From the NCBI GenBank assembly GCA_014305025.1, contig JACRTY010000036.1, forward strand, positions 62,001 to 126,000: 64,000 nucleotides of DNA, in the 5' to 3' direction. The notes beneath the pieces are model-generated. The model saw nothing but the letters and a program-made list of their open reading frames with translations. It was not told where the DNA came from and did no database searches. The position numbers and the translations under genes were made by a program. This document shows, piece after piece, positions 4,936 to 15,855 of this stretch; position 1 is the stretch's first letter; each line of letters begins with the position of its first letter. The DNA comes from Candidatus Nyctobacter psychrophilus. GTDB lineage: Bacteria > Vulcanimicrobiota > Vulcanimicrobiia > Vulcanimicrobiales > Vulcanimicrobiaceae.

Positions 4936-5096
4936 CCTGGAGGGGTTTAGTCAGCCGTAAAGCACCTCGGTGTGAGAGGCGACACGATCAGCGTGCACAA
5001 GCGAGCCGTCGCTGAGCCAGTGGTTTCGTTACAGTGTAAGCCACCTTATTCTGCGGCTGCACTCGGGTGCGGTATGATGGCGCCGTGAGGTCATCA

Positions 5097-5579
5097 ATGA
5101 GCCGAGGAACTATGCTGGCCGCGTTTGCCGGTGTTGCCGCATCGCTGGAAATCAAGAGCCGGCCGGCACGCGCTGTGGGCGAGCACTTCGAAATCCACCA
5201 CACCGACAAACAGTGGCATGCCATTCTCGATTCTGAGCAGTATGCGGTCTTGCGCGATCACGGGACGGAACCGCCGGCGTCGAGTCCGCTCGATGAAGAG
5301 AAGCGGGTTGGAAGTTATCTGTGCGCGGGCTGCAATCTCGCGCTCTTTGATTCGGCCACCAAGTTCGACAGCGGCACGGGTTGGCCGAGTTTCTACCGGC
5401 CGCTTCCCCACGCCGTCGAAACATCGCGCGACAACGGTTTCATGCTGGCACGAACCGAAGTACACTGCCGCCGCTGTGGTGGGCACCTCGGCCACGTCTT
5501 CAATGATGGGCCGCCTCCGACCGGTCTGCGCTATTGCATGAACGGCGTCGCGCTCGAGTTTCATCCGCATGCGAAGTAA
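5097..5579 (+). CDS. msrB: Peptide-methionine (R)-S-oxide reductase MsrB, exported
   Basis: This 160-residue protein shows the MsrB fold: two zinc-binding CxxC pairs ('CAGC' and 'CRRC'), 'FDSGTGWPSFY', 'GGHLGHVFNDGP' and the catalytic cysteine in 'RYCMNG' (residue 147). MsrB reduces the R epimer of methionine sulfoxide with thioredoxin-like donors. The first 27 residues ('LAAFAGVAASLEIKSRPARA') look like an export signal, so it probably acts in the periplasm. I chose ATG 5097 over an upstream start at 5067 because the signal then begins normally. It overlaps msrA by 11 bases, which implies a translationally coupled pair repairing both sulfoxide epimers. Confidence 0.93.
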   Translation: MSRGTMLAAFAGVAASLEIKSRPARAVGEHFEIHHTDKQWHAILDSEQYAVLRDHGTEPPASSPLDEEKRVGSYLCAGCNLALFDSATKFDSGTGWPSFYRPLPHAVETSRDNGFMLARTEVHCRRCGGHLGHVFNDGPPPTGLRYCMNGVALEFHPHAK

Positions 5580-6249
5580 CGCATTCGCGCAAACGATGCA
5601 TGCCGCACGAGCTTCCAAAACGGTCATCGTATCGCTGCTGGGAGCGGCCGTGATCGCCGGCTTCGGCTTTCGAATTACGCTTCCGGCCGGTGCTGCTCAG
5701 GTCCCGGAGACGCAAACCGCCGTGCTTGCAGGCGGGTGTTTCTGGGGCCTCGAGGGCGTCTTCGAAGCGCTCAAGGGAGTCCGCCACGTCGTGGCAGGTT
5801 ACTCAGGCGGCAGCGCGTTAAGCGCGCACTATGAGATCGTGAGCACGGGCTTAACCGGACATGCGGAATCGGTGTCGATCACCTACGATCCGCGCGAGAT
5901 TTCGTATGCCAGCCTCCTGAAGGTCTACTTCTTGGTCGCACACGACCCGACCGAGAGCAATCGGCAAGGGCCAGACTACGGACCTCAGTATCGATCAGAG
6001 ATATTTTACACTTCCAACGCGCAGAAGAATGTCGCGCAGCTGATGATTCGCCGCCTCACAGACGCGAAGGCGTTCTCCGCACCGATCGTCACGGAAGTTG
6101 CGCCGCTGCGCGCGTTCTATGCTGCGGAGCCTTATCATCAGCATTACATGGCCCTTCATCCGAACGATCCGTACATCGCAACCTTCGATGCACCGAAGCT
6201 CGACCATCTCAAGGCCGACTTCTCATCGCTCCTGGGCGCCAAATCCTAG
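5569..6249 (+). CDS. msrA: Peptide-methionine (S)-S-oxide reductase MsrA, exported or membrane-anchored
   Basis: The 226-residue protein has the MsrA active site 'GGCFWGLEGVFE' with the nucleophilic cysteine at residue 57. 'GYSGG', 'GHAESVSITYDP', 'DPTESNRQGPDYGPQYRS' and 'AEPYHQHY' are family blocks. MsrA reduces the S epimer of methionine sulfoxide. Residues 17-43 form a hydrophobic segment ending in 'AGAAQ', so the enzyme is probably exported or anchored outside the membrane, like MsrB upstream. An internal ATG at 5596 is a possible alternative start that would keep the signal. The next gene downstream, on the other strand, encodes a Met-rich exported protein, a plausible substrate. Confidence 0.95.
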   Translation: MRSNAFAQTMHAARASKTVIVSLLGAAVIAGFGFRITLPAGAAQVPETQTAVLAGGCFWGLEGVFEALKGVRHVVAGYSGGSALSAHYEIVSTGLTGHAESVSITYDPREISYASLLKVYFLVAHDPTESNRQGPDYGPQYRSEIFYTSNAQKNVAQLMIRRLTDAKAFSAPIVTEVAPLRAFYAAEPYHQHYMALHPNDPYIATFDAPKLDHLKADFSSLLGAKS

Positions 6250-6789: not shown

Positions 6790-7170
6790 TTACATATGTC
6801 CGTGCATAGAGCTGCTCATCATATGGGCGCCCATGGCATCGGCTTTCGATTTGCACATCATCGACATGTGATTTTTCATCATCATGTTGTGGTGCATTGA
6901 GCTGTTGTGGTTCATCGAGCTGTCGTGCATCATGGAGCTGTTGTGCATCATGGAGCTGTTGTGCATCATTTGCATGTGAGACTTGTCGGCCATCATGTAC
7001 GTCTTGTCCTTGGTGTTTACCATGACGATGGGGTCGCCTGATGAGCAATGCGGCTTCATCATCGATCCGTGCATCATCGACCCCTGCATCTGGTCTGCGG
7101 CGAAGACTGACGAGCTTGCGCCCGAGATAAGTGCGATAGTGAGGGAAAGCGTGGCTAGATACCGGTTCAT
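6790..7170 (-). CDS. Exported Met/His-rich small protein (oxidant sink or copper-binding candidate)
   Basis: The 126-residue product starts with a signal peptide ('RYLATLSLTIALISGASS', cleavage after 'SVFA'). The mature part of about 102 residues holds 28 Met and 13 His. A five-residue unit of the type MHNSS/MHDSS is repeated in tandem in the middle. There are two cysteines and almost no hydrophobic core, so it is probably disordered until it binds metal. ATG 7170 is preferred over ATG 7182 because the latter's own codons form the Shine-Dalgarno GGAGGT five bases before 7170. Met- and His-rich exported proteins often bind copper or silver. The neighbouring exported MsrA and MsrB suggest its methionines are also oxidised and repaired. 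The family is unknown to me. Confidence 0.8.
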   Translation of the reverse strand: MNRYLATLSLTIALISGASSSVFAADQMQGSMMHGSMMKPHCSSGDPIVMVNTKDKTYMMADKSHMQMMHNSSMMHNSSMMHDSSMNHNSSMHHNMMMKNHMSMMCKSKADAMGAHMMSSSMHGHM

Positions 7171-7219
7171 TGAGACCTCCATATGCTTTACTGTACCCCG
7201 AGCGGCCAGGCGCCAATCG

Positions 7220-7958: not shown

Positions 7959-7988
7959 TTGGACATAGGCGACAGGGTGTGCTAGGAT
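7959..7988 (+). promoter_or_regulatory. Promoter of the blaI-blaR1 operon
   Basis: A -35 box TTGGAC (7959-7964) and a -10 box TAGGAT (7983-7988) are separated by 18 bases. Transcription would start near 7995, giving a leader of about 24 bases before the blaI ATG at 8019. Confidence 0.6.
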
Positions 7989-7989
7989 C

Positions 7990-8005
7990 ACCTAATCTTT
8001 TAGGT
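7990..8005. promoter_or_regulatory. Operator palindrome at the blaI promoter
   Basis: The inverted repeat ACCTAA-TCTT-TTAGGT is perfect and starts one base after the -10 box, covering the likely transcription start. A dimeric BlaI/MecI-type repressor encoded directly downstream is the obvious ligand, giving autoregulation. The half-sites differ from the classic BlaI site TACA/TGTA. Confidence 0.6.
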
Positions 8006-8018
8006 CATGGAGGCTCGT

Positions 8019-8402
8019 ATGCCTAAACCCAAGGCGGAGAACCTCACGGAGGTCGAGCAACGCGCCATGGAGGTGTTGTGGTCGGCCGGAAGCGGGACCG
8101 TCAGCGAAGTGCTCGCCGCGCTGGACGCGCCGAAGCCGCTCGCGTTCAACACGGTTCAGACGATCTTGCGCATCCTCGAGAAAAAGGGTTACGTGCGGCA
8201 TCGGGAAGAGGGGCGGGCCTTTCGCTATTTTGCCCTAGTGGATAAAGCCACCGCATCCCGCAGTGCCGTGCATTCCGTGGTGCGCCGGTTCTTCGGCTCT
8301 CCCGGCGCGCTGGCCGTGAACTTGGTCCAGAACGAGAACCTGGGCGCCGCCGATCTGGCCCGCATTCGGCGCCTCATCGCCGACGCGGAGGCACGAAAAT
8401 GA
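8019..8402 (+). CDS. blaI: BlaI/MecI-family transcriptional repressor
   Basis: The 127-residue protein has the BlaI/MecI winged helix: 'LTEVEQRAMEVLWSAGSGTV', then 'FNTVQTILRILEKKGYV' as recognition helix, then 'REEGRAFRYFALVDKA', followed by a C-terminal dimerisation helix region. Proteins of this family repress target operons until a BlaR1-type sensor protease triggers their removal. The start is ATG 8019, not ATG 8007, because GGAGG (8009-8013) lies five bases upstream of it. The stop overlaps the next start (ATGA), so repressor and sensor are co-translated. The palindrome in its own promoter is the probable binding site. The inducing signal is unknown; beta-lactam is not implied, because such pairs are common outside resistance loci. 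Confidence 0.9.
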   Translation: MPKPKAENLTEVEQRAMEVLWSAGSGTVSEVLAALDAPKPLAFNTVQTILRILEKKGYVRHREEGRAFRYFALVDKATASRSAVHSVVRRFFGSPGALAVNLVQNENLGAADLARIRRLIADAEARK

Positions 8403-10375
8403 ACGCCGCCGCACTGCTCGTGGCGCTGTTCAACGGCGCCTGGCAGGGCGCCGTTGTGTGCGCGGTCGCGTATCTCGCGCTGCGCTCGTTGCGCCGAGTC
8501 AACGCGGCGACGATGTTTGCCGTATGGGGAGGCGTTTGGGCAATCTGCCTGCTCTTGCCGGTGGCCAACGATGTCTTTGCCGCAAAAGCGTCCACGGGCG
8601 ACGCTTGGGTCACGAGCCCGCAGCAAATCGTTGCTTTCCGACCGAGTTCCACCGAGCGCGGCTTGAGGTCATTGATTTCCGGTGTTCCTCGAAGGCCTGC
8701 GGGTCGCGCGCGTGCCGGTGCGGCGCTACCGGAGCGAGCCGCTGCGCCGCCGCGTGCGGGAGTCGCTGCCGCGCTTCGCGTTCTGCTTGCAAACGCCGGC
8801 ATCATCCTGTGGGTGTTGGCCGCTGTTGCCACAGTGCGCCTCATGCTGCTCGTGCGCGACATACGGACGATGCTGATGGCGCGCGGGCGGGTGCGGATCA
8901 TCGATCCGCCGGTGGCGTTGCGCCGCGCCGTCCGCCGGCCGTTGACGTTCGCCTCCTCGCCGGAGTTCTCGTCGCCCTGCGTGCTGGGCTTCGTTCCTAC
9001 CATCGTCGTCATTCCCGAAACGATTCTGAGCGGTTCGAAGGAACGGTTACACAGCGTCGTGCTGCACGAGTGCGAGCACGCGCGCCGCTTCGACGACGTG
9101 CAAAACGTCGTAATGCGCTTCGTCGGCGCCCTGGCGTTCATGTGCCCGGGCGTGCTGGTTGCCCAACGCCGGCTGGCGCTCTACCGCGAACAGATTTGCG
9201 ACGACGCGGTGCTCGCCGACACGGGCGACGCCGTGGCCTATGCCAAGACGCTGGCGCACCTGGCCGAGTGGACCCAGACGGTTCCCGCGCCGAGCCCGTG
9301 CCTCATCTTCGAGCGTAAACATCTCCTGCGCCGCGTGCACGTGCTGCTCGACGGAGCCGCGGTTCACTCCCTGCGTCTTGATCGGCGCTTCACGCTCGCC
9401 GCCGTTGCCGGTCTGGGATTGGCGGCGGCACTGGTGCTGCGCGTGCAAGTTCCCGTCATCGCCGATCCCGGCGTAACGGCTTCGTTCCCGGAAACGGCGC
9501 GCTTGCACGCAGACGACAGCGACATCCACATCCATGACCACGACGGCAAAGGCTCGGCATCGCGGACGGCAGCGCGGGCGCCGAAGACCTTTGCCGGAAC
9601 GTTCGAGCTTGCGGGATGTGCGGGTGCCGGGCAGGTTCGGCTCCGTCTCGAATACCATCACTTCAGCCCCGGGCATCTCGACTCCGACGACGTGGCAGCG
9701 TGCGTGCCGTTTTCGGAGCTTCGCGGCATCAGCGTGACGGATCTTGCCTCCCGCGACGTGGTGCACCGTACGTTTACGATCGTTCGCGATGCCGGTACGA
9801 TGCAAGCCCAAGGCCGGATCGGCAATGGTGCCGGGTCTGGAACGTGGACGTTCGTGCCGAGTTCAAGCTTCGTCGCAGAACTGCAGCGACGCGGCATCGG
9901 TGCTCCGAGCGCGATGCAGCAATTCGAGTGGATGCTGAGCGATTTTCAGCTCGCGACGCTCGACGCGCTACGCCGCAACGGGTTCGCGCGACCGTCCGTG
10001 CCCGATTTGGTTACGATGGGAGAAGTCGGGGTCACGGACAGGCTGATCGACCTCGCCGGAAGTCTCCCGTCACAGACAAAAACCGTCCGCCAACTGAACC
10101 GCCTCGCGGAGGTCGGCGTAACACCGAGTTACATCGGCGGATTGGAACGGCTCGGTTATCATACGTCGCTCGAAGAACTGATTCGGCTCAAGGAACTTGA
10201 CGTTACCCCGGACTACGTTGCGGGCGTCAAGCGTCTGGGTTATCGTCCCTCGGCTGAAGAACTCATGCGGCTCAAAGAGGTCGGTGTGACGCCCTCCTGG
10301 ATCCAGAACGAGAATAGCCGTGTCGCGCATCCGAGCATCGACGAGTTGATTCGCCTGAAAGAACGCGGATTCTAG
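8399..10375 (+). CDS. BlaR1/MecR1-like M56 membrane metalloprotease sensor with C-terminal repeats
   Basis: The 658-residue protein has N-terminal membrane spans, a loop, then the M56 peptidase zinc motif 'VVLHECEHARRFDD' (HExxH) followed by 'REQICDDAVL', which supplies the further ligand region. More spans follow near residue 330. The extracytoplasmic C-terminal part is not a penicillin-binding domain. It is a beta-type region followed by about three copies of a 28-residue unit (consensus LKEVGVTPxYIxGxxRLGY...EELIR) from about residue 569 to the end. The family cleaves or inactivates the cognate BlaI after sensing an external signal. Co-transcription with a DUF5916 barrel suggests control of an envelope function. 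Confidence 0.85.
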   Translation: MNAAALLVALFNGAWQGAVVCAVAYLALRSLRRVNAATMFAVWGGVWAICLLLPVANDVFAAKASTGDAWVTSPQQIVAFRPSSTERGLRSLISGVPRRPAGRARAGAALPERAAAPPRAGVAAALRVLLANAGIILWVLAAVATVRLMLLVRDIRTMLMARGRVRIIDPPVALRRAVRRPLTFASSPEFSSPCVLGFVPTIVVIPETILSGSKERLHSVVLHECEHARRFDDVQNVVMRFVGALAFMCPGVLVAQRRLALYREQICDDAVLADTGDAVAYAKTLAHLAEWTQTVPAPSPCLIFERKHLLRRVHVLLDGAAVHSLRLDRRFTLAAVAGLGLAAALVLRVQVPVIADPGVTASFPETARLHADDSDIHIHDHDGKGSASRTAARAPKTFAGTFELAGCAGAGQVRLRLEYHHFSPGHLDSDDVAACVPFSELRGISVTDLASRDVVHRTFTIVRDAGTMQAQGRIGNGAGSGTWTFVPSSSFVAELQRRGIGAPSAMQQFEWMLSDFQLATLDALRRNGFARPSVPDLVTMGEVGVTDRLIDLAGSLPSQTKTVRQLNRLAEVGVTPSYIGGLERLGYHTSLEELIRLKELDVTPDYVAGVKRLGYRPSAEELMRLKEVGVTPSWIQNENSRVAHPSIDELIRLKERGF

Positions 10376-10376
10376 A

Positions 10377-12461
10377 ATGCGGCCGTTCAGCGTCCTTTTT
10401 CTTACGGCCCTTATACCTATAGTATTAGGTACAACGACGACGCGTTTCGCTCAAGCAACGGCACCGCTGCCTAAGTTTGTGGTGAGCGCCGTCATGGCCG
10501 CAACTCCACCAAAGATCGACGGCACGCTCGACGATCCAGGTTGGCAGCAAGCGGCGCACGTTCGTCTGACGTGGGACTTCACGTACCGGCGGCCGGCCGA
10601 AGAAACCACCGACGTGTACGTGTTGGCGGATGCGCGTTTCCTGTATGTCGCGTTCCTATGCGTCCAAAGCGAGGCGCTCACCGCGACGCAGCACGCCGAT
10701 AACGTGCCGCTTACCACCGACGACGCCGTTACCGTGTATCTTTGGCCCGGCGGAAAGAACGGCTTTGAATACGGTTTCTCGGCCAATCCGCTCGGCTCGC
10801 ACGCTGGGTTTTCGTCGGAAAACACCGCTTTCGCTCCGAACTGGACCGCCGTCGGACGCCCGCGCGCTCACGGCTACGTCGTCACCGAACGTATTCCGCT
10901 CGACGTGATGCGCGGGGACGGACGAAACGCCTGGCTGTTGCAGTTCGATCGTGTCGTTCAAGCGAAAGACGTCACTTACGAGTGGGCACACGACCCTGCG
11001 CAAGGCGGGACCGATAATCCGAACTACGCGGGCGAACTGCGGGGAATGGATTTCGCGGCGCCGAGCACGCGCACGAAAGCGCGCCTGCAAGTGTACTCGC
11101 TCGGCGAGATCGCGGACAAAAACGCGGGCGGCAGCACGTCGCGCGCCGGTGCGGACTTCGCCGTGCCGATAACGCGAACGGCATCGTTTTTCGGCACACT
11201 TCATCCCGATTATTCGAACGTCGAACTCGACCAGCAAACGATTTCGCCGACGGTTTTCCCCCGGCAGTTCCAAGAGGTGCGACCCTTTTTCACCCAGGGC
11301 GGAAACTCTTACAATGACCTGAGGTGCCACGATTGCATCGATTATCCGCAACTCTATACGCCCGCGATTCCGACGCCGCGCGAGGGGTACGCCGTCGAAG
11401 GCGTGCAAGGCCAGTTCACGTTCGCCGGCCTTGACGCGATTGCGCCGCAACGAACGGATACGGCGCAGTCGTTCGAGTGGCGCTCGCGCGATCGGCGCTA
11501 CGACGTTTTGGCGCAACGACAGAGCGCCGACCTCCCCGGCATCCACGACGCGGCGCAATACTACCAGGTCAGCGTCAGCAACGTTCACAACTTCACTGCG
11601 TACGTAACCGATGGCGCGGAAAGCGGCACGGCCGTCACCGTACCGGGTGCGGGCGCGTATCGCGAGTACGGCGTGACCCTGTTCACGCCGAAGTCCGCCG
11701 TGCGCCTAACGTACCATGATGTCGGAGCGCAGTACGGTCCGGTCGACAGCTACGTCGCCCTCAACGATGTGCAGGGGCCGTCCGTCAGCGCGTACCGTGA
11801 GTTCGACTTCGGCGCAAATGCCTTCGTTAAGAACGTGAGTCTCTCGCAAGACTTCCAGCGCTTCCACTCGCATGCCGGGGCGCTCGACTTTACGGTCGAT
11901 CAATCGTCGCTCACGCTCAACGCGCAACGTCAGCTCTCACTCTCGCTCTCGAGTGGCGAAAACTACGTGCGGCAGACTGGCGAACCGGGCGGCTATGCCA
12001 ATCAGAACGGCGCCGCACTGTCGTACAAGGGTAACACTTCGACGCCAAGCGTCATCTCGTACAATGTCGGTCGCTTCGGTTTGGGGTATCTGCGCTCGTG
12101 GTCGCGCCTCGTCACGCTGCAGATCGGGCGGCGCGGTTCACTCGGCGTGGAAGCGGACGATACGATGGACGCGCTCGACCACGGCGGCAGGCTCACGCAG
12201 TGGTTGGAACGCGCGAACCTCGCCTACCAGTTTGGCCCCGACGCGTCGTTGGCGCTCGGCGCGCGCCGCATCATCGGCATCGGCCCAACGTTCTTCGACA
12301 GCCAGCAGTATGTCGATGCGACCAATCTTTCTCTCGCATACTACCGGCGGTTCGGAAACTCAGAGCTGTACGCCGCATACGGCGACCCGAACCGGCTGAC
12401 GACGCAGCACGCTTTCATCATTAAACTGATCCAGTACTTTGGCGCCGGAAAAGGGACCTAA
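10377..12461 (+). CDS. DUF5916-type outer-membrane protein with N-terminal CBM9/DOMON-like domain
   Basis: This 694-residue protein has a signal peptide (residues 1-26) and an N-terminal sugar-binding-like domain beginning 'PPKIDGTLDDPGWQQA' and including 'DVYVLADARFLYVAFLC'. A long beta-rich part follows with 'FGTLHPDYSNVELDQQTISP' and 'RPFFTQGG', the hallmark of DUF5916 carbohydrate-binding barrel proteins. It ends with a strand ('TTQHAFIIKLIQYFGA') typical of outer-membrane barrels. It is one base downstream of the M56 sensor gene, so it is very likely in the same operon. A paralogue lies at 34931-37195. Substrate and function are unknown; binding or uptake of a polymer at the cell surface is a guess. 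Confidence 0.8.
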   Translation: MRPFSVLFLTALIPIVLGTTTTRFAQATAPLPKFVVSAVMAATPPKIDGTLDDPGWQQAAHVRLTWDFTYRRPAEETTDVYVLADARFLYVAFLCVQSEALTATQHADNVPLTTDDAVTVYLWPGGKNGFEYGFSANPLGSHAGFSSENTAFAPNWTAVGRPRAHGYVVTERIPLDVMRGDGRNAWLLQFDRVVQAKDVTYEWAHDPAQGGTDNPNYAGELRGMDFAAPSTRTKARLQVYSLGEIADKNAGGSTSRAGADFAVPITRTASFFGTLHPDYSNVELDQQTISPTVFPRQFQEVRPFFTQGGNSYNDLRCHDCIDYPQLYTPAIPTPREGYAVEGVQGQFTFAGLDAIAPQRTDTAQSFEWRSRDRRYDVLAQRQSADLPGIHDAAQYYQVSVSNVHNFTAYVTDGAESGTAVTVPGAGAYREYGVTLFTPKSAVRLTYHDVGAQYGPVDSYVALNDVQGPSVSAYREFDFGANAFVKNVSLSQDFQRFHSHAGALDFTVDQSSLTLNAQRQLSLSLSSGENYVRQTGEPGGYANQNGAALSYKGNTSTPSVISYNVGRFGLGYLRSWSRLVTLQIGRRGSLGVEADDTMDALDHGGRLTQWLERANLAYQFGPDASLALGARRIIGIGPTFFDSQQYVDATNLSLAYYRRFGNSELYAAYGDPNRLTTQHAFIIKLIQYFGAGKGT

Positions 12462-13152: not shown

Positions 13153-13225
13153 CTGCTGCGGAGCATCGCCCATGAGTCAGAACCCACGGCTAATTCTGCC
13201 GGCGGTTGCAGGCCTTTGACCGTTG

Positions 13226-15855
13226 GTGCCGTTTGCCGATCAGCTCTTCGCGTTCGTCTTGCGCGCAGCGCCCCAAGCGTTCCGCAGGACGTACGGAGCG
13301 CAGATGCGCCGTGATTTTCGTGAGGGATTACGGGAAGAGCGTGAAGCTGGGGGATCGGTGGGGGCGTTTCTTTTTGTCTTGCGCGCCTGTGCTGACGTCC
13401 TGTTGAGCGGATGGGGCGAGTACGGCGCCATGATCTTGCGCGACCTCGCTTTCGCTGTGCGTTCAATGCGCAAAGCACCGCTGTTCTCGGTCGTCGTGAT
13501 CGCGACCCTAGCGCTCGCGATCGGCGCCAACGCGACGGCCTTCAGCATCCTGCGCGCAGTCGTGCTGGCGCCGCTGCCGTACCCCCAAGCGGGACGACTC
13601 GTCGCCATTGACGGCACGCTCGAGGGCGTTGCGGCGTTCGCCGTCCCGTCTCTGGATCTCGAAGCATTCCGCAAAGAAAATCGGACCTTACGCGCGTTCG
13701 CCGGTGCAAGGGATACGACGGCGCTGTGGAGTTATCGGGGACGCGTGCGGAGAATGACGGGCGTCAACGCGACGCAGGATCTGTTTGCGGTGCTGGCTGT
13801 TCGCCCGCAACTGGGTCGCTTCTTTACCGAGGCGGATACGCATCCCGGTGCGAAGCCGGCCGTGGTCCTTTCCGACGCCTTCTGGCGGCATAACTTCGGT
13901 GCTGATCCACGAATCATAGGTACGCAGCTGCGAATCGACGGTGTCGCGTCGACGGTCGTCGGATCGCGCCGCGCGGACTGGAGCAACCGGAGACGAGCGG
14001 CGACTTAACCAAAGCGGACTTCTGGCGCGCCTTGCCGCTTCGACCGTCACGCTCTGGCGAAATTATGCTCTTGGGCGGAATCGGGCGCTTGCGCGACGGC
14101 GAGACGCTGGCCGCAGTTCGCGCCGATGTCCAAATGATCCACGCGCGTGTCGCCAAGCACTATACGAAGCTGGAGCCCCATTTCGGCGTGCGCGTCGAAC
14201 CGCTGCAGGACGCGGTCATTGGGGACGCAGGACCGTTCCTCTTTGCGATCTTCGCGGCCGTAACGGGAGTTTTGCTCGTCGCGTGTGCGAACGTTGCGAA
14301 CCTGCTATTGAGCCGCGGAGCCACCCGCGATCGCGAGTTTGCCGTCCGTGTAGCCAACGGCGCAAGCCGCCGCCGTATCATCGCGCAACTGCTGGCAGAA
14401 AGCTTCGTTTTCGCAGCATCGGGCGGACTGTGCGGGCTTGGGCTGGCCTACGCCGGAGTTACCGGCTTCGTCGCAAGTGCGCCTCAGCTTCCACGCCTGG
14501 ATGCAATCACGTTCGACGAGTCGACCGCCCTGTATACGCTGCTCGCCGTCGCTTTCTGCACGTTTGCGGCGGGACTCGCACCCGCATTTGCTCTATCGTC
14601 GCGCCAGGTCGCGATCGCGTTGAAGGCGGCGGGCCGCGGCGGCGATGCCAGCCGCGGTGCGCGAGCGCGCGCCGGTCTGATGGTCGTCGAGATTGCGCTG
14701 ACATTTGCGCTCGTCGTAGCGTCGAGTCTGGTCGTGCGGAGCTTCTGGATCCTCACGCATGAGCCGCTGGGGTTTTCGCCGCAGAACGTCATCGTCAGCG
14801 ACAACATCGATGACAGTTTGGAAAGTGCGATGGGACAGTCCTCGTCGAGCCGGCGTGTCTTTCGCGGTTTCTACGAACGCTTAGCAGCGAGAATGCAGGC
14901 GATTCCCGGTGTCCGCGCGGTGAGCTTGGCGATCTCTGCGCCGTTCATGGAGCGCATGCCGGAGCTACGGTTTACATTCGCGGACCATCCGATGCCGGAC
15001 ACAGAAAAACCGCGGGCTGAATTCGCTGCCGTTGGACCCTCCTATTTCGCTTTACTGCGCGTTCCGCTGCTGAAGGGCCGATCGTTCACCAACCGAGACC
15101 GCGCCGACGCGCTCGGCGTCGTCATCGTGAACGAGGTTTTTGCGCGCGAGTACCGGCCACACGGTCCCGTCATCGGCACACGCATCGCCGGCATCCCGAC
15201 CGGCGGAAACGGAAAGCGGCCGCCGGCAACGATCGTCGGGGTCGTGGGAGACGTCCGTGGAACCTATGCCTTGGCTCCGCAGCCGACCATCTACATGCCG
15301 TTCGAGCAGGCCCCGGTGTTACCGGCCATCGCTCTCGTGCGGACGGTCCCCGGTGTCCACGTCGCCTCCTCCGTCGCTGCGGAGGTGCCCGCGACGAATC
15401 CGCTCTTACCGGCACCGCAAATGCGCGATCTTACGAGCTACATGAGTGACGATGCAGCGCGCGCGCGTCTGGCAGCGATCACGCTTGGAACCCTGGGTTT
15501 GCTCGGATTGACGCTCGCGGTCGCCGGCATCTATGCCGTCGTATCCTACGGCGTCGCGCAGCGCACGCATGAACTGGGCGTGCGCATGGCGCTCGGCGCG
15601 CGGGCCCGACACATCGTGCAGCGTGTCATCGCCGGCACGCTAGGTCTGACGATCATCGGCGTTCTCTGCGGCATCGTCGTCGGCGCGTTCGCGGTGCGTT
15701 TGGTTGCCGACGAGCTGTATGGTATCAAGCCATACGATCCACTGACGTTTGGGCTCGTCATCCTCATGATCACGCTCGCGTCGATTGTTGCTGCGCTCCT
15801 CCCAGCGCGGCGTGCAACGCATGTCGAGCCCATCGTGGCGCTACGTTACGAGTGA
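13226..15855 (+). pseudogene. ADOP-family (FtsX/MacB-like) ABC permease 1, frameshifted
   Basis: A short 'permease prefix' domain ('RAAPQAFRRTYGAQMRRDF') leads into an FtsX/MacB-type permease: first span 'LFSVVVIATLALAIGANATA', a periplasmic domain, then spans at 'AIFAAVTGVLLVACANVANLL' and the C-terminal block 'RTHELGVRMALGARARHIV', ending 'PIVALRYE'. The frame changes near 13966: 'STVVG' should continue 'APRGLEQPETSGDLTKADFW', one base out of phase. A single missing base accounts for it. ADOP permeases lack their own ATPase domain and use separate ATPases to move lipids or peptides across the envelope. The start is GTG 13226 or TTG 13223. It is controlled by the promoter at 13110. Confidence 0.85.

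Follow-up and report, generated by a model that had tools for sequence, protein, structure and literature searches.

Proteases of the BlaR1 type are known above all for sensing antibiotics, and the locus described here raises the question of what such a protease responds to, and what it switches, when its outer end carries a beta domain and helical repeats and no penicillin-binding domain. The locus lies in the window, as we call the whole stretch of 64,000 nucleotides (nt) of Candidatus Nyctobacter psychrophilus DNA that was analysed (contig JACRTY010000036.1, positions 62,001 to 126,000 of the forward strand). Its positions 8007-12461 are one tight three-gene operon comprising blaI, the gene of an M56 sensor-protease and the gene of a DUF5916-like barrel protein. 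All three genes are on the + strand; blaI and the sensor gene overlap by 4 nt, and the sensor stop is separated from the barrel open reading frame (ORF) by 1 nt, a spacing that bears out the proposal, made in a preliminary description of this DNA, that sensor and barrel share an operon. The span given there (8399-12461) left out blaI (8007-8402). Comparison with related loci indicates that sensor and barrel very probably form a single conserved BlaI-controlled circuit. The elements of the operon are the following:

7960..7988, + strand: promoter-like sequence ahead of blaI, TGGACA-17-TAGGAT (9 of 12 positions matching in a consensus scan)
7990..8005, no strand assigned: operator 1, ACCTAATCTTTTAGGT, predicted BlaI site just before blaI
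8007..8402, + strand: blaI-type repressor, 131 amino acids (aa; PF03965, E 5.9e-30)
8399..10375, + strand: sensor gene, encoding an M56 protease of 658 aa with a fused beta domain and helical repeats
8453..9343, + strand: M56 membrane protease part of the sensor, residues 19-315 (PF05569, E 4.9e-19; HECEH at 223-227)
10377..12461, + strand: gene of a 694-aa secreted protein that is DUF5916-like and predicted to form an outer-membrane barrel (PF19313, E 0.00022, below the cut-off)
10415..10430, no strand assigned: operator 2, ACCTATAGTATTAGGT, predicted, in the signal-peptide codons of the DUF5916-like gene

BlaI matched the Penicillinase_R winged-helix family (PF03965) with 104.4 bits against a cut-off of 22.6. 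In the sensor, whose membrane spans were judged by eye, the H, E and H of the HECEH zinc motif (residues 223-227) are invariant across 18 aligned sequences. A Pfam scan up to E 1 detected no penicillin-binding (class D lactamase-like) domain in the sensor, the only further match being a sub-threshold HTH_3 within the repeats, and the BlaR1 models of NCBIfam matched in the protease part only, as expected from the earlier description of an M56 sensor devoid of such a domain. The promoter consensus scan returned 2 sites in 4.8 kb where 0.8 were expected, which on its own is weak.

The palindrome ACCTA-N6-TAGGT occurs in exactly two perfect copies in the 3.22-Mb genome, both of them in this operon, and in three further places with one mismatch. 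A perfect site was present upstream of blaI in 12 of 12 window-type relatives. Operator 2 stands at the same position in five related operons, in one of them with 1 mismatch, and the bases flanking it diverge; of the six TTA/ATA/CTA codons of the barrel gene, two fall within operator 2 and one more at its border. A second group of helical-repeat operons has TACTA-N6-TAGT(A/T) instead, with 12 sites in 6 blaI upstream regions, and the core CTA-N6-TAG precedes blaI in all 6 of these operons vs about 2% expected. Sites are also found at DUF5916 genes that stand outside the operon arrangement of the window: at locus L055 DUF5916 is a separate upstream unit with its own site 33 nt before the start; genome G027, whose operon has neither partner nor barrel, carries an unlinked DUF5916 gene with a site 21 nt before the start; and genome G001 (70% complete; no window-type operon found) has the operator at the start of an unlinked DUF5916 gene. 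Other perfect sites lie near the start codons of genes for two peptidases, S15 and S10, and a 314-aa protein (G048), a BAAT-type hydrolase (G069), a TonB receptor (G121), an erythromycin-esterase-family protein (G122) and a 249-aa protein (G039). The 13 window-type genomes hold 26 perfect sites, 17 in operons and 9 unlinked, and 5 of the 9 unlinked sites are within 30 nt of a start codon, a placement that is the sole argument for their function. From the conservation and position of the two palindromes in the window, we infer that BlaI binds both of them. Perfect palindromes located inside or at the end of genes and having GC-rich or other spacers (L244, L246, L274 and L278) were discarded as likely chance occurrences.

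The second link between sensor and barrel comes from gene neighbourhoods. DUF5916 was encoded directly downstream (same strand, within 2.5 kb; window excluded) of 27 of 63 repeat-bearing sensors vs 0 of 36 repeat-less ones (P 6.4e-7); by kind of repeat, the figures were 22/42 for sensors with pentapeptide repeats, 5/21 for helical ones and 0/36 for those without repeats. As to sampling, some loci had been picked for a nearby DUF5916 gene, and the remaining listed M56 matches were then added. This co-occurrence, together with the palindrome shared by the region before blaI and the barrel gene, supports the earlier suggestion that sensor and barrel belong to one circuit. The preliminary description had held that wide occurrence of the repeats in unrelated proteins and separate transcription of the barrel gene would speak against it; the module made of beta domain and repeats proved widespread (59 loci, several phyla), and no sign of separate barrel transcription was seen here.

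The barrel protein itself is a borderline case. Its PF19313 match (residues 256-310) reached 20.5 bits, below the gathering cut-off of 22.6, and two unlinked homologues with the same operator (L155 and L238) passed it with 33.2 and 27.4 bits. The AlphaFold model had a mean predicted local distance difference test (pLDDT) score of only 47 and showed some 20 regular strands from residue 347 onward; of the 50 Foldseek rows listed, almost all were outer-membrane barrels (best E 1.3e-5), which is weak evidence given the low-confidence query model. The likeness to DUF5916 (PF19313) consists of a weak match and a barrel-like strand pattern; in the cell the protein would be placed in the outer membrane. 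Some DUF5916 members carry a CBM9-like front part, and a homologue with the same operator that is above the PF19313 cut-off also gave a sub-threshold CBM9_1 match. Two relatives have their barrel genes elsewhere in the genome, carrying the operator. With 12 matches in the genome of the window, the barrel protein belongs to a large paralogue family; a whole-genome pattern search found no perfect site at the other DUF5916 genes of that genome, and four paralogue loci (L149-L152, on contigs C44, C57, C54 and C2) had no operator within 1 mismatch.

The outer half of the sensor (residues 360-658) was modelled with AlphaFold from an alignment of 44 sequences, with a mean pLDDT of 90. It contains the following parts:

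9590..9859, + strand: six-stranded beta domain, residues 398-487 (AlphaFold model; no Pfam match)
9911..10363, + strand: residues 505-655, a helical solenoid in which 11 short helices make up about 5.5 two-helix units (AlphaFold model)
10118..10201, + strand: canonical 28-residue unit, residues 574-601 (repeat profile, 30.3 bits)
10202..10285, + strand: canonical 28-residue unit, residues 602-629 (repeat profile, 29.5 bits)

In the model the beta domain (398-487), which the preliminary description had not mentioned, is joined by one helix to the solenoid, whose period is two helices per 28 residues. Within the domain A106-G107, G113 and G122, numbered as in the aligned segment, do not vary in either of two sequence sets (15 and 44 sequences). 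A profile built from relatives recognized three weaker units besides the two canonical ones, one of them partial (residues 643-654, 9.1 bits), so that the earlier count of about three units was fair for what is visible in the sequence and falls short of the five or so in the structure. Any one Pfam family matched at most 8 of the 44 members of the beta-domain and repeat alignment, and HTH and other Pfam matches to single units were dismissed as chance likeness of two short helices. A lipocalin-like beta domain was likewise dropped, its Z being only about 3-4 when the domain was compared within a larger model. The solenoid resembled in shape the transcription activator-like effector (TALE)-like protein BurrH (4cj9; Z 5.1 over 159 residues, root-mean-square deviation (rmsd) 6.0) and chain A2 of an MTERF4-containing complex (7o9k; Z 5.7 over 80 residues, rmsd 3.6), at 9-11% identity and with scores usual for common arrangements, for which reason no kinship is claimed; the window solenoid differs from both in its 28-residue unit and in being expected outside the cytoplasm. 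In sequence-profile comparison the only hits were five repeat proteins, all of them designed or engineered (E 1e-8 to 0.002), and kinship with TALE or designed solenoids was rejected because the matches were too weak.

Where does this outer part come from? The usual operon of relatives consists of blaI, a repeat-bearing M56 gene, usually a separate gene for a secreted partner made of beta domain and repeats, and sometimes DUF5916. No separate partner is encoded within 1.5 kb of the window sensor. Residues 398-658 of the latter matched the two closest separate partners throughout (identities of 38 and 41%; 177 and 179 bits), and their match to sensors was almost confined to the repeats (best 86 bits). 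Four Acidobacteriota sensors (L090, L099, L112 and L116) are fused in the same way, which brings the fusion to at least two separate lineages, that of the window and that of the Acidobacteriota four. A separate partner accompanied 0 of 5 fused vs 28 of 31 unfused helical sensors (Fisher P 1.5e-4; because the rows are related, Fisher P values overstate their independence, which tells against our interpretation). The sequences thus show the window sensor to be a partner fused onto an M56 sensor, a one-piece receptor.

Recent duplication of the sensor outer part was rejected as the source of the matched repeats, since partner and sensor profiles separate: partner repeats scored higher with the partner profile in 13 of 14 cases (in one by 0.3 bit), and sensors did the reverse in 17 of 17. 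On this showing, sensor and partner repeats are mostly old, separate lineages. The module of beta domain and repeats was found at 59 loci in records named Eremiobacterota, Acidobacteriota, Gemmatimonadetes, Alphaproteobacteria, Latescibacterota and others, 21 of them with an M56 gene (some contigs are short). Among L064-L118 are proteins with beta domain and repeats for which no M56 gene was found in the same locus, including Alphaproteobacteria, Gemmatimonadetes and Acidobacteriota records, and no regulator was recognized among the same-strand neighbours of the remaining loci, as inspected by their first residues only. Some helical-repeat operons have conspicuous neighbours: a protein of about 1040 aa is encoded directly upstream in L044 (1004-4120), L045 (2006-5155) and L046 (2142-5267), of which L044 and L045, the ones scanned, gave Sortilin/VPS10 and BNR matches, and a subtilase (S8) gene ends about 80 nt upstream of blaI in L041 (4521-6191) and L042 (9301-10911), which are close relatives.

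In many sister operons, pentapeptide repeats take the place of the helical ones, in sensor and partner alike. We classified 114 M56 sensors, namely the listed M56 matches from homology searches, the named loci and the window; the search covered 98 genomes, and as far as could be checked every M56 match among the best ones listed was included. The helical kind was defined by at least 3 matches to a custom repeat profile and the pentapeptide kind by a run of at least 6 on a home-made score, PF00805 being confirmed by Pfam in 7 of 7 pentapeptide proteins tested; L055 has its M56 gene in two separate ORFs and was assigned to the helical kind by hand. Four of 103 M56 ORFs were dropped from the counts (two pieces below 300 aa and two truncated at the end of a contig); each set of identical proteins entered as a single one, and near-identical ones were kept apart. 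In all 57 sensor-partner pairs the repeats of the two proteins were of one kind, helical in 28 pairs and pentapeptide in 29, and no pair was mixed. Among partnerless sensors, 13 were of the pentapeptide kind and 8 of the helical kind, 5 of the latter being fused, and none of the 36 repeat-less sensors had a repeat partner. Neither kind formed a single group in a tree of 72 M56 rows, whose well-supported branches force at least 2 changes of repeat kind; just one change sufficed in 0 of 200 bootstrap trees. These 72 rows were taken from 116, leaving out repeat-less, long-branched and some near-duplicate or short rows, and in a quick tree of all 116 each of the two kinds required 3 or more changes. 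As far as these sequences tell, the sensors of this family have outer parts that come in matched pairs and change fold together, in a real and conserved circuit.

The matching in all 57 pairs speaks more for pairing between proteins than for the sensing of a polymer or of the cell wall, and pairing looks likelier. Tentatively, and as one serious possibility, repeats of one kind would stack on like repeats between the membrane protease and a free periplasmic partner, the fold being exchangeable if both halves change, and the fusion would be such a receptor in one piece. Matching alone is no proof of contact, because the sensor end and the adjacent partner gene could be carried by a single recombination; the repeats might match since the two travel together, contact being unneeded and each protein perhaps binding the same ligand. 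Co-transfer of this kind agrees with the 4-nt overlap of sensor and partner genes in 10 of the 16 operons of the helical kind for which a partner is listed, with pentapeptide partner starts at -49 to +197 nt relative to the sensor stop, with a sensor-partner order that is constant in both kinds, and with M56 sister clades that differ in the entire cassette, blaI and often DUF5916 being unchanged. A passively carried gene, however, should sometimes mismatch, and 0 of 57 pairs do, and fusion in at least two separate lineages suggests that the two proteins act jointly, so that we consider co-transfer without contact somewhat unlikely. The preliminary description had proposed that the repeats bind a polymer outside the cell or report the state of the cell wall and that the barrel answers. 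Solenoids often bind extended ligands; a nutrient or polymer signal would also be in keeping with the predicted sites of relatives at genes for S15 and S10 peptidases, a BAAT-type hydrolase and a TonB receptor, and with the subtilase genes beside two operons. But the same output gene lies behind two unlike kinds of repeat, which means that a ligand of the helical repeats is not the common principle, and no cell-wall gene was recognized among the predicted targets; we hold this version to be unlikely. That the barrel is co-transcribed by chance, outside BlaI control, would be compatible with the many DUF5916 genes that are not beside an M56 gene (12 matches in this genome) and with a perfect palindrome at only this one of the genome's DUF5916 genes. 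It is very unlikely in view of the 27/63 vs 0/36 downstream counts, the operator that the window and five relatives retain among the first codons of the barrel gene, and the sites at the unlinked DUF5916 genes of G027 and G001.

Several observations weigh against a BlaI circuit with paired repeats, and we list them here. CTA-N6-TAG precedes blaI in low shares of the other operons (14/37 pentapeptide, 13/33 repeat-less and 2/11 remaining named helical; about 1% expected). It is absent from -150 to +75 at the DUF5916 genes of L052, L056 and L057 and, over the same interval, at 23 of 25 DUF5916 starts of pentapeptide loci, the other 2 having a site shared with a divergent blaI. The 9 unlinked perfect sites of the 13 window-type genomes are not enriched over the 19 of a reversed-pattern control, and similar sites occur upstream of other kinds of genes in genomes without a window-type operon. 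DUF5916 is not directly downstream of 36 of the 63 repeat-bearing sensors, and in two of the 36 repeat-less ones (L193 and L196) it lies about 0.55 kb away on the other strand. No partner was recognized within 1.5 kb of 13 of 42 pentapeptide and 3 of 31 unfused helical sensors. Judged by the repeats alone, the window fits the partner with 126.6 and the sensor with 124.3 bits, values too close to assign the last units to either. Finally, sensor outer part and partner gene adjoin on the DNA, where one recombination could move both.

Taken with these points, the locus is probably a BlaR1/BlaI-type switch with a rebuilt input, in which repeats would dock, the partner is fused to the sensor here, and the barrel is the output. 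The operon, the fusion, the matched repeats and the palindromes with their placement can be read from the sequences; BlaI binding, BlaI cleavage, repeat docking and an outer-membrane location of the barrel are the steps that we infer. BlaI is predicted to occupy the ACCTA-N6-TAGGT copies upstream of blaI and in the first part of the barrel gene, holding expression of the operon down and that of the barrel further down; operator 2 may stop read-through from making barrel before the signal. The M56 protease would span the inner membrane with the beta domain and solenoid facing outside. In the usual form, the repeats of the sensor would most likely dock with repeats of the same kind in the secreted partner, and a signal caught by the partner would pass to the sensor; this docking is suggested by the matched repeats, and the window fusion would be such a pair in one piece. 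As for the known systems, the passages on BlaR1 and MecR1 in PMC7593790 describe a protease that is activated by an outer-domain signal and removes BlaI. By analogy, the signal would turn the protease on, BlaI would be cut and the barrel made, and in some relatives secreted hydrolases would perhaps be induced too. The predicted peptidase and hydrolase targets prompt the weak guess that the signal is peptide- or polymer-derived material outside the cell, that is, nutrients.

The operon resembles BlaR1/BlaI and MecR1/MecI in the family of its repressor, in an M56 protease with a zinc motif, in overlapping genes and in palindromic predicted operators, and the variable part is at the C-terminal outer end, as in the layout of BlaR1 given in the relevant part of PMC7593790. 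It differs from BlaR1 and MecR1 in an outer domain of beta domain plus helical repeats in place of a penicillin-binding one, in a linked output that is a DUF5916-like barrel and not a lactamase or PBP2a, and in relatives that have a separate partner with matching repeats. With regard to these two-part M56 systems, in which the partner is separate, the window departs in having the partner-like part fused; and whereas sister operons use pentapeptide-repeat proteins (PF00805) in sensor and partner, the window has 28-residue two-helix units. In one library of openly licensed papers we did not find the term DUF5916, pentapeptide repeats together with the M56 family, or Eremiobacterota together with BlaR; pentapeptide repeats together with BlaR1 came up only in work on antibiotic resistance, judging by titles and the opening of abstracts, and nothing on this system was noticed, by listing, in the broader BlaR1/BlaI/M56 literature of the same kind.

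Elsewhere in the window, upstream of the operon, the genes of MsrB (SelR, 5067-5579) and MsrA (PMSR, 5569-6249) adjoin each other, both with leader-like N-termini as judged by eye. Near this pair, 6790-7182 on the - strand encodes a secreted-looking, Met/His/Ser-rich protein of 130 aa with NSSMMH-like repeats, perhaps metal-binding or a methionine sink. A MacB/FtsX-type permease is apparently in two ORFs (13223-14008 and 14032-15855), as from a stop or frameshift.

For the family as a whole, a large set of M56 proteins with two unlike kinds of repeat and a common neighbour gene offers a natural collection of pairs, swaps and fusions. This set of sensors and partners is useful for studying the transmembrane switching of M56 proteases, and the predicted circuit would give a first regulatory handle on DUF5916 proteins.

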